From Spirochaetota bacterium (GTDB taxonomy: Bacteria > Spirochaetota > Spirochaetia > Treponematales > UBA12059), in the NCBI GenBank assembly GCA_022703505.1, contig JAKLDN010000008.1, positions 1-64,000 on the forward strand: a DNA stretch of 64,000 nucleotides, read 5' to 3'. Positions 12,891-38,738 of the stretch are shown piece after piece. Each line of letters opens with the position of its first letter. Positions within the stretch are counted from its first letter, which is position 1. Both the position numbers and the translations under genes were made by a program. The notes under the pieces are model-generated. The model ran no database searches. It was not told where the DNA came from and was given only the letters and a program-made list of their open reading frames with translations.

Positions 12891-14561
12891 ATGAGCACGG
12901 TGCACGAAAAGATCCTGAACGCCTCCCGGGATTTCATCACCCTGGTCTCCTCGGAGTACGTGTACGAGTTCGTGAACGAGTCCTACTGCCGGGAGATCGG
13001 TCTGGACCGGCAGGCGATCCTGGGAAGGACGGTGGCGGAGGTCTGGGGCAAGCGCAAGTTCGAGACCCGGATCAAGCGGCACCTGGACGAATGCTTCGGC
13101 GGCGCCGAATCCCACGACATCGACCGGTTCAAGTTCGGGGACGAGGAGAAGTACGTCCACGTGGCGTACTATCCCTTCCGGGAGGGCACCCGGGTCACCC
13201 ACGTCATGGTGGACACCCACGACATCTCCGCCCTGAAGGACCTCCAGACCCGGATCATCAACTTCGAGTACAAGGACTCCACCACGGGGCTGTTCAACCG
13301 CAGGTCCTTCGACATCGTCCTGGACATGGAACTGGAGAAGGCCCGGAGATCCCAGACCGACAAGGTTCGGGCCATCCTCTTCGTGAACCTCAGGAATTTC
13401 ACCCAGATCAACGCCCGGTACGGCTACGAGGTCGGCGATCTTCTGCTGGAAGCCACGGGCATGCGGATCCGGGAAGCCCTGCGGGCCTCGGACTACGTCT
13501 TCCGCTTCGAGGGCAAGGACCTGGCCATCATCCTGACCACGATGAAGCGCAGCACGGACCTGTCCATCGTGGCCGACAACATCCGGGGCAAGGCCTTCTA
13601 CCCCTACACCCACCAGGGCGCGGTCATCAACATCGGGTGCAACATCGGGGCCTCGGTTTTCCCGGATGACGGGGACGACAAGAAGAGCCTGGTCAAGTTC
13701 GCCCTGTCCGCCATGGAGGAGGCCCAGACCAGGAACGAGCCCCTGATCATCTTCAACCAGGAGCTGCACCGGGCCGCCCTCCGGAAAGCCAAGCTGAGGT
13801 CCGACCTCCGGACGGCCCTGGTGGCGGAGCAGTTCGAGACCCACTTCCAGCCCATCGTGGACGCCGCGGGATCCCTGATCGGTGCGGAGGCCCTGATCCG
13901 GTGGTCCCACCCGGAGATGGGGAACATCCCGCCCATGGAGTTCATCCCCCTGGCGGAGGAATCCGGGGACACCATCATGATCGGCCGCTGGGTCCTCTTC
14001 CAGGTCTGCAAGCATATCAAGCGCTGGAGCGGGCTCCTGGGGGACCGGTACATCTCCGTGAACCTCTCGGCCAAGGAATTCGCCGGGGAAGGCCTCGTGG
14101 AGTACATCGACCGGGTCCTCCGCTCCGAGGGAGTTCCGCCGGCCCAGCTGAAGCTGGAGATCACGGAAACCCAGAGCATGATGGACATCGAGGACGCCAT
14201 CGGCAAGATACGCCGCCTGAAGGACATCGGGGTGGACGTCTACATCGACGACTTCGGAGCCGGCTACTCGTCCCTGGCCTACCTGAAGCGGCTTCCGGCG
14301 GGGGTCATCAAGATCGACAAGTGCTTCGTGGACAACGTGGCCGAGGACGAGGAGGAACGGGCTTTCCTGGCGGGAATGATCGGGATGATCGTAAGCAAGG
14401 ACAAGCGCATCGTCGTCGAGGGGGTCGCCACCCGGGAACAGCGCGACATCCTGGCAGGCCTGGGAGTGGAACGGATGCAGGGGTACTACTTCAGCAAGGC
14501 CCTTCCCGCCCCGGATTTCGAGGTCCTCCTGGGCCGCAGGGAGCCCCTGCCGGTGTCATAA
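12891..14561 (+). CDS. PAS-GGDEF-EAL protein, probable c-di-GMP phosphodiesterase
   Basis: A 556-residue cytoplasmic protein with no membrane segment. A PAS sensor comes first (about 1-120), then GGDEF (about 125-290, starting DSTTGLFNRRSFD) and EAL (about 300-545). The GGDEF active-site loop reads EGKDL, so diguanylate cyclase activity should be lost. The EAL domain keeps its key residues: EALIRW, the EITE motif, DDFGAGYSS, KIDKCFVDN, VVEGV and QGYYFSKAL. It should therefore degrade cyclic di-GMP, perhaps controlled by the PAS signal and by GTP binding to the degenerate GGDEF. In spirochaetes cyclic di-GMP governs motility and chemotaxis. It converges on gdhA. Confidence 0.92.
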   Translation: MSTVHEKILNASRDFITLVSSEYVYEFVNESYCREIGLDRQAILGRTVAEVWGKRKFETRIKRHLDECFGGAESHDIDRFKFGDEEKYVHVAYYPFREGTRVTHVMVDTHDISALKDLQTRIINFEYKDSTTGLFNRRSFDIVLDMELEKARRSQTDKVRAILFVNLRNFTQINARYGYEVGDLLLEATGMRIREALRASDYVFRFEGKDLAIILTTMKRSTDLSIVADNIRGKAFYPYTHQGAVINIGCNIGASVFPDDGDDKKSLVKFALSAMEEAQTRNEPLIIFNQELHRAALRKAKLRSDLRTALVAEQFETHFQPIVDAAGSLIGAEALIRWSHPEMGNIPPMEFIPLAEESGDTIMIGRWVLFQVCKHIKRWSGLLGDRYISVNLSAKEFAGEGLVEYIDRVLRSEGVPPAQLKLEITETQSMMDIEDAIGKIRRLKDIGVDVYIDDFGAGYSSLAYLKRLPAGVIKIDKCFVDNVAEDEEERAFLAGMIGMIVSKDKRIVVEGVATREQRDILAGLGVERMQGYYFSKALPAPDFEVLLGRREPLPVS

Positions 14562-14590
14562 AAAAGGGGCGGTCCCTTTCGGGACCGCCC
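14562..14590 (-). terminator. intrinsic terminator, strongest toward gdhA
   Basis: A 10-bp perfect stem GGGCGGTCCC / GGGACCGCCC with a 4-nt loop (14567-14576/14581-14590). Read on the minus strand it is followed by TTTTTT, a classic rho-independent terminator for gdhA transcripts. On the plus strand the trailing sequence is only GTACGTTTATT, so it may also serve the EAL gene, less well. The gdhA message would thus have a 3' untranslated region of about 325 nt that includes the tandem hairpin array. Confidence 0.85.
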
Positions 14591-14650
14591 GTACGTTTAT
14601 TCATACTTCATATCATCAGCCTGTCCGGCGCAGCGAGCTTCCTCGTCCAT

Positions 14651-14855
14651 ATCCTGGGCAGCCGGAACCCGCGCTTTGCGCGGGTTCCGAACAGCCGCGG
14701 CGCGAAGCGCCTACAGGACCAAATCCTGGGCAGCCGGAATCCGCGCCAAGCGCGGATTCCGAACAGCAACGGCGCGAAGCGCCTACAGGACCAAATCCTG
14801 GGCAGCCGGAACCCGCGCTTTGCGCGGGTTCCGAACAGCCGCGGCGCGAAGCGCC
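14651..14855 (-). repeat. 72-bp tandem repeat array (about 2.8 units) with paired hairpins
   Basis: Units start at 14651, 14723 and 14795, an exact 72-bp period. Each holds an 11-bp hairpin with a 3-nt loop (GGAACCCGCGC / GCGCGGGTTCC) and a short GGCGC-gaa-GCGCC hairpin. In the middle unit the stem reads GGAATCCGCGC / GCGCGGATTCC: the C-to-T change is matched by G-to-A in the other arm. On the minus strand each unit also carries GCCCAGGATTTGGT or a close variant, resembling the gdhA 3' end. The array lies in the presumed gdhA 3' untranslated region. Confidence 0.9.
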
Positions 14856-14859
14856 GCGG

Positions 14860-14899
14860 CTAGACCAGTCCCTGCGCGATCATGGCGTCCCGACGCCAT
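14860..14899 (-). repeat. displaced second copy of the gdhA C-terminal codons, with hairpin
   Basis: On the minus strand 14860-14889 reads as DAMIAQGLV followed by TAG, exactly the last nine residues of GdhA, 26 bp past the real stop. Five of the nine codons differ from the live copy by synonymous changes. The first ten bases (GACGCCATGA) form a 10-bp hairpin with TCATGGCGTC directly upstream. The copy is not in frame with gdhA because the live gene stops at 14916. Its TAG lies in a CTAG. Confidence 0.85.
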
Positions 14900-14915
14900 G
14901 ACCCTGCAGGCCGGT

Positions 14916-16262
14916 TTATACCAAGCCCTGGGCAATCATGGCGTCGGCGACCTTCTTGAAGCCCGCGATGTTCCCGCCCACGACGTAGTTCCCCTCGTGG
15001 CCGTACTGCTTGGCGGTCTCCACGCAGGCGCGGTGGATGTTGATCATGATCTCGTGGAGCCGCCTGTCCACTTCCTCGGCGCTCCAGGCCAGGCGCATGG
15101 AGTTCTGGCTCATCTCCAGGCCCGAGGTGGCCACGCCGCCCGCGTTCGCCGCCTTGCCGGGAGCGAAGGGGATCTTCTTCTCGATGAAGAGCTTCCAGGC
15201 CTCGGGGGTGCAGCCCATGTTGGAGACCTCGACGACGATCTTGACGCCGTTGGCCACCAGGGTCTTGGCGTCGTCCCCGTTGAGCTCGTTCTGGATGGCG
15301 CAGGGCATGGCGATGTCGACCTTCTGCTCCCAGGGCTTCTTGCCCGCGAAGAACTTGGCGTTGGGGAACTTCTTGGCGTAGGTCTCCACCTTGTTCCGGT
15401 CGATGACCAGCATCTGCTCCAGGTAGTTCCACTTCTCCTGGGTCCCGATCCCGTCCGGGTCGTAGACGTAACCGTCCGGACCGGAGATGGTGACGACCTT
15501 GGCGCCCAGCTGGGAGGCCTTGATGCAGGCGCCCCAGGCTACGTTGCCGAAGCCGGACACGGAGACGACCTTGCCCTTCAGGGAATCGTTCTTCAGCTTG
15601 AGCATCTCCTCGGCGAAGTAGACGGCGCCGAAGCCCGTGGCCTCCGGGCGGATGAGGGAGCCGCCGAAGGTCAGTCCCTTGCCCGTGAGGACGCCGGTGA
15701 ACTCGTTGGCCAAGCGCTTGTACTGGCCGAACATGTACCCGACCTCGCGGCCGCCCACGCCGATGTCGCCCGCCGGCACGTCCGTGTCCGGGCCGATGTG
15801 GCGGAAGAGCTCGGTCATGAAGCTCTGGCAGAAGCGCATGATCTCGTTGTCGCTCTTGCCGTTGGGATCGAAGTCCGAGCCGCCCTTGCCGCCGCCCATG
15901 GGCAGGCTGGTCAGGGAGTTCTTGAAGGTCTGCTCGAAGCCCAGGAACTTGAGGGTGGAGAGCTGGACCTTCGGGTGGAAGCGGATCCCGCCCTTGTAGG
16001 GACCGATGGCGGAGTTGAACTGAACGCGGTAGCCCCGGTTGACGTGGTATTCGCCCTTGTCGTCGATCCACGGAACGCGGAAGAGGATGGAGCGCTCGGG
16101 CTCGATGATGCGCTCCAGGATGCGCTGGGCCTTGTACTTGGGCTCCGCCTCGATGAGGGGCTCGATGGACTCCAGCACCTCCTCCGCGGCCTGGAGGAAC
16201 TCGTTCTCCCAGGGGTAGCGGGCCTTGAGGCCGTCCAGGACTTCCTTGATATATGCGTTCAC
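14916..16262 (-). CDS. gdhA: NADP-type glutamate dehydrogenase
   Basis: A 448-residue hexameric-class glutamate dehydrogenase, matching the usual 445-450. Key features: the glutamate-binding segment PYKGGIRFHP near residue 85, the catalytic-lysine motif GGGKGGSDFDPNGKS, and the dinucleotide-binding GFGNVAWGACIKASQLGA. It interconverts 2-oxoglutarate plus ammonia and glutamate in the cytoplasm. I chose the GTG at 16262 because an AAGGAGG site lies 6 nt upstream of it; an ATG seven codons earlier (16283) has no such site. The gene ends in TAA, and an extra copy of its last nine codons lies 26 bp downstream. It is expressed alone from its own promoter. Confidence 0.95.
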   Translation of the reverse strand: MNAYIKEVLDGLKARYPWENEFLQAAEEVLESIEPLIEAEPKYKAQRILERIIEPERSILFRVPWIDDKGEYHVNRGYRVQFNSAIGPYKGGIRFHPKVQLSTLKFLGFEQTFKNSLTSLPMGGGKGGSDFDPNGKSDNEIMRFCQSFMTELFRHIGPDTDVPAGDIGVGGREVGYMFGQYKRLANEFTGVLTGKGLTFGGSLIRPEATGFGAVYFAEEMLKLKNDSLKGKVVSVSGFGNVAWGACIKASQLGAKVVTISGPDGYVYDPDGIGTQEKWNYLEQMLVIDRNKVETYAKKFPNAKFFAGKKPWEQKVDIAMPCAIQNELNGDDAKTLVANGVKIVVEVSNMGCTPEAWKLFIEKKIPFAPGKAANAGGVATSGLEMSQNSMRLAWSAEEVDRRLHEIMINIHRACVETAKQYGHEGNYVVGGNIAGFKKVADAMIAQGLV

Positions 16263-16328
16263 GATGCCCTCCTTGTTGGACATACGCGTGTTTGGTGATT
16301 GAAGGGCGCTGCGGCCCTTCCTGGGTTT

Positions 16329-30540: not shown

Positions 30541-31116
30541 ATGTCCAAGAATGACGAAGCCGATCACGCCCTCCACTCCCTGCGCCGGGAGCAGTTGGTG
30601 GAGGAGGTCCGCCGCCTGCGCGCCCTCCTGGAAGACACTCGGGACCTTCCGGACATGGCCAGCGACGCCCTCCGCAGGGCCAACGCACGGACCGAGGAAT
30701 ACCGGACGGCCTTCGTGGTGGCCACGGAGGAGTTGGCACGCGCTCGTTCGGCCCTCCAGGAAACCTGGCGGGTACTGAAGGCCCAGGAGTTCTCCGCCCC
30801 CGCCTACAGCCTGTACGCGGAGACCGGAGGCGAGGCTCTCGGCGCGACCGCCGGTTCTCCCTCCCTACCGGAGGCCCGGGAGCGCGGGGCCTGCCCGGCC
30901 TGCGGGGGCTTCGGCTCCCATTCCCCCTCCTGCTCCCTGGCGCGGGCCCTGGAGCCTTCCCGGGACCCCCGGCCCCCGCGAGGCGAACTGGAACGGGCCG
31001 TGGACCGGGCCTGGGAGGAGCGGACCGGGGAAAAGGACGGGGTCCGCGCCCGGCTCGTCTTCCTGGACGTGCTCTTCGAGGAGCTGGCCAAGCGAGGCCT
31101 GGTCCGGGAAGACTGA
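30541..31116 (+). CDS. coiled-coil protein with a Cys/His zinc motif
   Basis: A 191-residue soluble protein that I do not recognise. Residues 5-85 are strongly helical with heptad-like spacing, a probable coiled coil. Near residue 118 there is CPACGGFGSHSPSC, a likely zinc-binding knuckle. The C-terminal 45 residues (VRARLVFLDVLFEELAKRGL) look like another amphipathic helix. No catalytic motif is seen. The gene stands alone, has no Shine-Dalgarno site and is probably leaderless. Its stop codon abuts the most diverged copy of the ychF 3' end. Confidence 0.7.
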   Translation: MSKNDEADHALHSLRREQLVEEVRRLRALLEDTRDLPDMASDALRRANARTEEYRTAFVVATEELARARSALQETWRVLKAQEFSAPAYSLYAETGGEALGATAGSPSLPEARERGACPACGGFGSHSPSCSLARALEPSRDPRPPRGELERAVDRAWEERTGEKDGVRARLVFLDVLFEELAKRGLVRED

Positions 31117-31118
31117 AC

Positions 31119-31217
31119 ATTGAATTTGAAGAACATCACACCCCCGTCTCGTCCGGCGCGGGGCGCCGGACGGCGACGAACGCGTTCGCGTTCGTCGATC
31201 CCACCGGAACGTCGTCC
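31119..31217 (-). repeat. third ychF 3'-end copy plus palindromes (direct repeat copy 1)
   Basis: About 95 bp nearly identical to 31302-31400, at an offset of exactly 183 bp. On the minus strand it starts with a diverged copy of the ychF C-terminal codons (DGGVMFFKFNV, no stop). The downstream part holds two perfect hairpins: a 10-bp stem around the GGCGCC core near 31153-31173 and an 11-bp stem CGACGAACGCG / CGCGTTCGTCG at about 31174-31197. Confidence 0.85.
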
Positions 31218-31218
31218 G

Positions 31219-31285
31219 CGCCGGAGCGCCGGGCGCTCCGGCGGCGCGGAAGGCCTCTAAGCCTTCCGCGATCCACCGAATCGCG
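31219..31285. repeat. cluster of GC-rich hairpins
   Basis: Three perfect inverted repeats in 67 bp: an 11-bp stem (31219-31229/31233-31243), a 10-bp stem with loop ctctaa (31245-31254/31261-31270) and a 6-bp stem CGCGAT/ATCGCG (31267-31272/31280-31285). The last two overlap, so they may be alternative folds. No T-run follows. They separate the two 95-bp direct repeats. Confidence 0.75.
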
Positions 31286-31295
31286 AGTCTTTTAG

Positions 31296-31400
31296 CTAGA
31301 TATTAAACTTGAAGAACATCACATCCCCGTCTCGTCCGGCGCGGGGCGCCGGACGGCGACGAACGCGTTCGCGTTCGTCGATATTCCTGAAACGTCGTCC
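31296..31400 (-). repeat. second ychF 3'-end copy plus palindromes (direct repeat copy 2)
   Basis: On the minus strand 31296-31328 reads DGDVMFFKFNI then TAG, identical in protein to the real YchF C-terminus but with three synonymous codon changes. The TAG lies in a CTAG (31296-31299). The rest repeats the two hairpins found at 31119-31217. The stretch 31392-31408 is an inverted copy of gene sequence just inside ychF (CGTCGTCCAGGACGGG). Confidence 0.85.
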
Positions 31401-31414
31401 AGGACGGGCGGGTA

Positions 31415-32512
31415 TCAAATATTGAATTTGAAGAACATCACATCCCCGTCCTGGACGACGTACTCCTTGCCTTCCAGGCGGAGTTTGCCGGCGGACTTCA
31501 CGGCGTGCTCACTGCCGTATTCCATGAGGTCGTCGTAGCGGTAGACCTCGGCCTTGATGAAACCCTTCTCGAAGTCCGTGTGGATGGTCCCCGCCGCGGC
31601 GGGAGCCTTGTCCCCGACATGGATGGTCCAGGCCCGGCACTCGTCCTCCCCGGCGGTGAAGAAGGTGCGCAGGCCCAGGAGGTGGTAGACGGCGTGGATC
31701 AGGGCCGACAGGCCGGATTCCGCCAGGCCCAGCTCCGCCAGGAATTCCGCCTTCTCCTCCTCGCTCTCCAGGTCCGCCAGCTCGGACTCGAACTTCCCGC
31801 AGATGACCACGCACTCGGCGCCCTCGGCCTCGGCGATCCTCCGCACCGCCTCGACGTGGGGGCTGCCCGTGCAGATCCCCTCCTCGTCGGCGTTGCAGAC
31901 GTAGATCTCCTTCTTCATCGTGATGAGGAAGGAGCGCTTGACCGCCTCGGCCTCCTCGGCATCCAGGGAGACGGACCGGGCCGGACGGCCCTCCTGCAGG
32001 GCGGGGCGGATCTTGGCGTAGGCGGCCAGTTCCCGTTCGGCATCCTTCTTCTTGGCGGGATCCTTCAGCTCCTTCTGGAGTTTTTCCGCGCGCTTGTCCA
32101 CGGTCTCCAGGTCCGCCAGGGCCAGCTCCAGGTGGAGCATCTCGATGTCGTCCCCGGGGCTCACCCGGTTGGAGACGTGGGGCACCTCGGGGTCCTCGAA
32201 GCACCGGACCACGTGGGCCAGGACCGCGGAGTCCCGGATGTGGGCCAGGAACTGGTTGGCTCCCTCCTTCTTGGAGGCCGCGGAGGCCAGCCCCGCGATG
32301 TCCACGAACTCCACCGTGGCGGGGACCTTCTTCCGGGGCTTGAACATCTCCGTGAGCCGGTCCAGCCGTGGGTCCGGCACGGCGATGATGCCCAGGTTGG
32401 GATTCTTGGCGGAGGAATAGTTGGAGATCTCCGCCTTGACCCGGGTCAGGGCGGTGAATATCGTGGTCTTGCCGACCGTGGGCAGTCCGATGATTCCGCA
32501 GTTCAGGGGCAT
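31415..32512 (-). CDS. ychF: redox-regulated ATPase YchF
   Basis: A 365-residue Obg-family P-loop protein, the usual length. The G1 motif is GLPTVGKT, G3 is DIAGLASAASKKEGANQFL, and G4 is NADE rather than NKxD, which is the YchF signature for ATP over GTP. A coiled coil and a C-terminal TGS domain follow (about residues 280-363, ending EYVVQDGDVMFFKFNI). YchF binds ribosomes and is linked to stress responses. The start at 32512 has a GAGG site; an upstream ATG (32548) adds 12 residues unlike the family. The stop is TGA, and two further copies of the last codons lie downstream. Confidence 0.96.
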   Translation of the reverse strand: MPLNCGIIGLPTVGKTTIFTALTRVKAEISNYSSAKNPNLGIIAVPDPRLDRLTEMFKPRKKVPATVEFVDIAGLASAASKKEGANQFLAHIRDSAVLAHVVRCFEDPEVPHVSNRVSPGDDIEMLHLELALADLETVDKRAEKLQKELKDPAKKKDAERELAAYAKIRPALQEGRPARSVSLDAEEAEAVKRSFLITMKKEIYVCNADEEGICTGSPHVEAVRRIAEAEGAECVVICGKFESELADLESEEEKAEFLAELGLAESGLSALIHAVYHLLGLRTFFTAGEDECRAWTIHVGDKAPAAAGTIHTDFEKGFIKAEVYRYDDLMEYGSEHAVKSAGKLRLEGKEYVVQDGDVMFFKFNI

Positions 32513-32744
32513 ATGTACCTCGCTCGGGAGGGGCACCGGACCGCTCACGGTCCTTCGACGGCCCTTTCCTACACCCTAAAGAAAGCGCCTCCCCGCGTCA
32601 ATGCCGGATCCCGCCGCAGAAAACCGCGCTTGCCCGGCTCCGGACCCGCAACCTTTACGAAGCGGCTCCGTATCGGTTAGCATGATCGGAACTGCCGGAC
32701 CGGGCCGGTCGCCCGGAACGGCGAAACCACCAAGGAGACGATCC

Positions 32745-38660: not shown

Positions 38661-38738
38661 CGGTGGACGGTGGACAGCGGACGGAAGGATGGAAATCCTC
38701 TCCACGGTTCACCGTTCACTGTTCACTGTTCACTTCCC
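38661..38738 (-). repeat. GTGGACAG-type palindromic repeat at the ptb 3' end
   Basis: Left part GGTGGACGGTGGACAGCGG and right part with three GTTCACT units form a degenerate inverted repeat. The motif ACGGYGGACAGYGGACGGAA is shared with 26503-26572. On the minus strand the repeat encodes the last ptb residues S-E-Q and its TGA stop (38723-38725). Confidence 0.75.

Follow-up and report, generated by a model that had tools for sequence, protein, structure and literature searches.

A 72-bp double-hairpin array at the 3' end of gdhA in a spirochaete, and the copied gene tails beside it

The 3' end of gdhA in a spirochaete of the order Treponematales shows a tandem array of perfect hairpins between the gene and its terminator, and raises the question of whether these hairpins are kept by selection on the RNA or are the product of DNA rearrangement at the end of the gene. 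The window is the whole stretch of 64,000 nucleotides that was analysed (contig JAKLDN010000008.1, positions 1 to 64,000). It contains gdhA, an ORF encoding a glutamate dehydrogenase (Pfam PF00208 and PF02812), on the minus strand at 14916-16283; the stop is at 14916 and the final 10 codons, stop included, occupy 14916-14945. The array of double-hairpin units is located on the same strand at 14647-14855. Tandem Repeats Finder gives a period of 72, 2.9 copies and 89% matches, and a repeat finder gives unit spacings of exactly 72 and 72, in agreement with the three units at exact 72-bp steps described in the initial annotation. All three units contain one hairpin B, with a perfect stem and a loop of 3: at 14663-14689 in the unit farthest from gdhA, at 14735-14761 in the middle unit and at 14807-14833 in the unit closest to gdhA (all on the minus strand). 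This hairpin had been described before as one of 11 bp; the hairpin is there in every unit, and its stem measures 12 bp. A second palindrome, GGCGCGAAGCGCC (hairpin A, not assigned to a strand), was missing from that first list and is present in every unit, at 14699-14711, 14771-14783 and 14843-14855, the last copy extending to 14837-14861. The minus strand also shows a unit segment, GCCCAGGATTTGGTCCTGTAG, at 14711-14731, with a second copy at 14783-14803, which is weakly similar to the gdhA tail (AQDLVL-stop). Beyond the array, an intrinsic terminator read in the gdhA direction is found on the minus strand at 14567-14590, with a stem that faces the convergent EAL/GGDEF gene at its end as well. 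The array is located, as previously stated, between the gdhA stop (14916) and this terminator (14590-14567) and, judging from the sequence, it is likely to be within the gdhA transcript if transcription reaches the terminator.

The array is a single locus in the 3.66-Mb genome (G000). A genome search with the hairpin pattern, allowing one mismatch at most, finds only the three units described here, with one extra match at three mismatches, and the palindrome GGCGCGAAGCGCC does not form a frequent repeat family. The closest gdhA matches among named sequences are spirochaete MAGs, at 85%. When units are counted in close relatives, where some assemblies (G001 onwards) are fragmented, two congeners show the array at the same place: G001 contains two units and G002 contains one, versus 2.9 here. 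The initial annotation had considered a conserved RNA role unlikely if close relatives lacked the array, and it is present in both congeners, in a series of 3, 2 and 1 units. No other family genome in which a gdhA end is present contains it, and its position is conserved inside one genus, not beyond.

A functional RNA is the first explanation to weigh: the array would be a 3' UTR element, maintained by selection, that shields the gdhA mRNA from 3' exonucleases or binds a protein. Its placement ahead of the terminator is consistent with this role, and the minus-strand RNA folds far more strongly than shuffled sequences, with z = -9.8 for 14644-14918 and z = -10.5 for 14560-14960. An Rfam search of the array gives no family, the best score being 24.5 bits, below the gathering threshold of 34.7. 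The hairpin part is conserved among the units and the segment behind it is not. In the alignment of six units from three species, 96 of the 96 scored pair cells hold standard pairs, and two pairs show changes on both sides; shuffling gives as high a covariation score in only 3 of 500 cases, yet relatedness alone can yield that. The change from C-G to T-A on both arms of hairpin B in the middle unit, reported previously, is present in the sequence. However, the same hairpins contain loop inversions. The loop of hairpin B is TTG on the T-A stem of the middle unit and CAA on an identical stem in G001, an exact inversion, and hairpin A has the loop GAA in G002 versus TTC in the other five units. 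Homogenised arms combined with inverted spacers are a published outcome of DNA polymerase template switching between the arms of inverted repeats (PMC8604942), and both hallmarks are found in the six-unit alignment. Because of the loop inversions and this template-switch signature, the paired change does not discriminate for an RNA role: copying errors of the DNA at hairpins would produce a base change on two arms just as readily, and the compensated pair does not support selection on the RNA. A conserved RNA role is further weakened by the restriction of the array to one genus, by the series of 3, 2 and 1 units, and by the unrelated hairpin arrays found behind other genes of the genome. All the evidence for an RNA function of the array is also explained by template switching, and such a function is possible, but we regard it as unlikely. 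Template switching itself is a mutational mechanism and, although it accounts for the homogenised arms and the inverted spacers of the array hairpins, alone it leaves the replaced gene ends described below unexplained.

Between gdhA and the array there is a second copy of the gdhA tail, which was not reported before. It is located at 14860-14889 on the minus strand and codes for DAMIAQGLV followed by a TAG stop, and it departs from the gene tail by synonymous changes only. A further, inverted tail copy (CCGACGCCATGA on the plus strand) is annotated on the minus strand at 14890-14901 and is able to pair with the gene tail at 14936-14947 or with the second tail; a homologous inverted piece is present in G001, G002 and G005. 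The second tail is found beside the array in all three congeners (G000, G001 and G002). G005 shows two extra gdhA tails with a homologous spacer, G008 shows short tail-inverted-tail units of 20 bp, and G192 and the MAG Spiro_07, from another part of the order, show a double hairpin and then a gdhA tail copy. In the genome scan, none of the 76 other (non-spirochaete) gdhA loci contains a tail copy. According to the initial annotation, each unit carries a GCCCAGG..TTGGT piece like the gdhA end, and the units may have spread from there. The piece is present, and 4 of 5000 shuffles match the own gdhA tail equally well, but against the congener tails 212 and 312 of 5000 shuffles do so, and this resemblance, taken alone, is weak. 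The proposal that pieces of the gdhA end had been copied was right in kind: a full tail copy, a much closer match than the piece inside the units, adjoins the array. Translation of the second tail by readthrough or frameshift was considered and rejected; at gdhA the second tail is offset by 26 nt from the first stop, out of frame, in the three congeners, and a common mechanism of this type was discarded because the reading frame of the second tail differs between loci.

The same window shows a 3' anatomy like that of gdhA at ychF (Pfam PF06071), located on the minus strand at 31415-32548. An inverted ychF tail piece of 17 nt, at 31392-31408, is 100% complementary to 31445-31461. A second tail copy, at 31296-31331, ends in a TAG stop and has only synonymous differences, and a third copy, at 31116-31148, is decayed and has no stop; the three features are on the minus strand. 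A double hairpin not assigned to a strand (31333-31380, with hairpins at 31333-31355 and 31357-31380) is ahead of the second tail, and it is repeated at 31150-31172 and 31174-31197, ahead of the third. The gdhA array is likewise directly behind the second gdhA tail, and its unit, as at ychF, consists of two hairpins and a weak tail-like segment. Copies of the ychF tail are found in G001, G004, G013, G016 and G020, which include other genera, and in G025, which belongs to another family; in G004 the copy is identical to the own gene tail, past the stop too. Other observations concern the surroundings of these gene ends. The ychF tail array is the meeting point of ychF and a convergent gene (positions 30541-32548), and the third, decayed tail ends at the stop of the convergent gene. 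At the ychF locus of G008 (L213), a serine recombinase gene (Pfam Resolvase) is directly after the altered ychF 3' end, and the contig ends inside it. Elsewhere in the window, a CACTGTT tandem repeat of 4.6 copies is located at a gene end (38703-38734).

When 926 gene ends were scanned in 1.26 Mb, roughly 35% of the genome, with genes called by a simple codon-composition rule, scores above 30 were obtained only for gdhA, ychF, groEL, aspS and a single spurious ORF that lies within a hairpin array. The four genes share the same anatomy: the gene tail, an inverted piece of the tail, hairpins, and a tail copy with a stop, in a duplicated gene end with restored reading frame. Tail copies of groEL are found in 8 of the 17 scored loci of the family and those of aspS in six of its genomes; in several genera the aspS copy starts at one and the same codon (GA(T/C)TGCCC). 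In aspS and groEL, a module contains two hairpins with a connecting linker that resembles ACTACAATNNNTTCCNCTCCG. In this genus, the gdhA and ychF modules lack this linker, and therefore the gdhA/ychF and the aspS/groEL modules may belong to separate families. For the latter, a covariance model was abandoned, as the alignment of locus-specific hairpins gave no consensus structure, and an Rfam search of the other double-hairpin loci found only Chlorobi-1 (27.6 versus a threshold of 50), which was discarded because the match consists of one hairpin and the coding tail. Most family genomes show an inverted groEL tail copy 54-65 nt past the stop, even those without a direct copy (L338-L360). In the aspS locus of G006 (L381), double-hairpin modules interrupt the downstream tail copy at two points, apparently with no loss of coding bases.

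The main rival explanation for these copies remains plain tandem duplication, in which slippage or template switching copies tail and hairpins where they are, neither a mobile module nor a foreign tail being involved, and the copies diverge later and are partly homogenised. It fits the direct-inverted-direct order of the tails at gdhA, at ychF and in the 20-bp units of G008 gdhA, the locus-specific hairpin sequences, and the G004 ychF copy, which matches its own gene tail without a difference even past the stop; the count of 3, 2 and 1 units is typical of direct-repeat instability. Three sets of data are against it. At the aspS end of G000, the downstream copy, with about 170 nt beyond it, aligns with the gene end of G002, including a changed C-terminus, VDSSEPR, and the gene-proximal tail is different. 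In groEL, each tail has its own terminator, and the terminators of the copies differ far more than the hairpin module between them, which is identical. The groEL segments after the stop pair in a shuffled order across the three congeners, with identities of 0.91 between module 2 of G000 and module 2 of G002, 0.84 between module 1 of G001 and module 1 of G002, and 0.83 between module 1 of G000 and module 2 of G001; the gene bodies of the three congeners are about equally distant (0.94-0.96). The groEL tails are repetitive (GGM), and this can inflate similarity. The third set is a strong synonymous excess: in 27 pairs of tail copies and gene tails, picked by similarity and by hand and including related species that are not independent, differences are found at 86 of 177 synonymous sites and at 23 of 756 nonsynonymous sites, a nonsynonymous share lowered already by the gene-tail branch, which is always under coding selection. 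Unselected decay of the copies would give many more amino acid changes. The stops are nearly always kept in the copies, and often exchanged for another stop. The aspS collinearity, the groEL order and the synonymous excess favour displacement of former gene ends over decay of duplicates. Recombination among direct repeats could yield part of the pattern in aspS, groEL and the copies, and the aspS collinearity can also be read as a loss by such recombination in G002. Plain tandem duplication is a possible, though not the probable, origin of the copies.

Other locus-specific tandem arrays, with periods of 45-130 bp, are present in this genome at C1:406996-407530 and at seven other places in 1.26 Mb. 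They are mostly hairpin-rich, with unrelated sequences, and most of them are directly behind gene ends; the arrays at C1:435000 and C1:406996 appear to include pieces of the end of the neighbouring gene. With moderate confidence, the gdhA array is filed with them. Two dispersed repeats were also observed. A REP-like repeat, GGGGACAGAGCTC, is found at C1:449003-449065 and at about 35 other places in 1.26 Mb, with one cluster directly before a gene resembling a REP-associated tyrosine transposase (RAYT). In the genomes of family f3 (L384-L395), a double-hairpin repeat combines a variable first hairpin with a conserved second one, CTGAGTCAAGG..AAGCGAAGCGT.CCTTGACCAG; it shows five copies in G293, is in tandem in G285, and is located at the gdhA and ychF ends and also at other intergenic places, mostly without tail copies. 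In L386 the end of the neighbouring gene contributes to the first hairpin of this repeat. An origin of the gdhA array as a REP, BIME or REPIN-type element mobilised by a RAYT transposase was also weighed. REP and BIME palindromes are located near the 3' ends of genes and in the space between convergent ones (PMC3733652), as the palindromes do here, and the genome contains the dispersed GGGGACAGAGCTC repeat beside a gene with RAYT-like sequence. However, these elements have a dispersed common sequence with a tag motif (PMC3733652), one sequence in many copies, whereas here each sequence has one locus, the gdhA unit included. This largely contradicts such an origin, which is very improbable.

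The duplicated ends and their modules may be compared with three other systems. Phages and islands integrate into gene 3' ends and classically leave these duplicated, with synonymous differences, so that the arrays could be scars of integration at att sites, since deleted. The spirochaete loci share with such integration the duplicated gene end, the restored reading frame and the synonymous differences, and the serine recombinase gene is directly after the ychF end of G008. In contrast, none of the arrays seen contains cargo or an integrase, the modules measure only 70-220 bp with many repeats per locus, and the gdhA array shows no similarity to phages or plasmids, all of which makes an integration scar a rather remote explanation. 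Mitochondrial double-hairpin and other hairpin elements contain two hairpins with a short linker and form intergenic clusters, as the spirochaete modules do. The latter differ from them in their locus-specific hairpin sequences, and we know of no copied gene tail for the mitochondrial elements. The closest known case is that of the C-terminus-replacing ORFs of fungal mitochondria: mobile ORFs of Glomus and Allomyces carry an endonuclease and duplicate C-termini (PMC3630166). In both systems the gene receives a new C-terminus and its native piece is found downstream, the differences are mostly synonymous and several housekeeping genes are struck (PMC3630166). The fungal inserts encode a homing endonuclease, whereas the spirochaete inserts, in a bacterium, are double hairpins of 70-220 bp that code for no protein; no endonuclease ORF is found between the tails, where the intervals are short runs of hairpins and spacer of about 26-270 bp.

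The best reading of the gdhA array is that of a residue of repeated duplication or displacement of the 3' end by small non-coding double-hairpin modules, reshaped by template switching. We give about an even chance to the full account, in which a locus-specific double-hairpin array arose from DNA rearrangement at the gene 3' end, with modules replacing gene ends and template switching acting later. Small non-coding double-hairpin modules would repeatedly settle at the ends of conserved genes in this spirochaete order, each arriving with a complete replacement for the final codons and the stop and, at groEL, for the terminator too. The former gene end would be shifted downstream and remain there as a tail copy. 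Template switching between the arms would keep the palindromes perfect and flip the loops, and units would be gained and lost as direct repeats. The modules would thus be mobile and inserted rather than duplicated in tandem, presumably with the involvement of an enzyme, and the 72-bp units of gdhA would be part of the same process despite the missing aspS/groEL linker. A search for a recombinase or a circular form of the modules found only the serine recombinase gene after the ychF end of G008.

A more far-reaching version, which we put forward tentatively and as less probable than not, is a cassette-like system that swaps the 3' ends of housekeeping genes: a short non-coding double-hairpin module would enter at a fixed point in the last codons with a complete new end, made up of codons, stop and in some cases a terminator, and the old ends would be recorded downstream, the newest being gene-proximal. 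A compensated base pair within a repeat array must not be counted as proof of a functional RNA. If the modules do replace gene ends, core genes such as aspS and groEL would trade C-termini and terminators by way of tiny non-coding elements. This would open a new route for gene evolution in bacteria and provide a test case for the spread of protein-free hairpin elements. Even if only tandem duplication is involved, the arrays are natural records of template switching.
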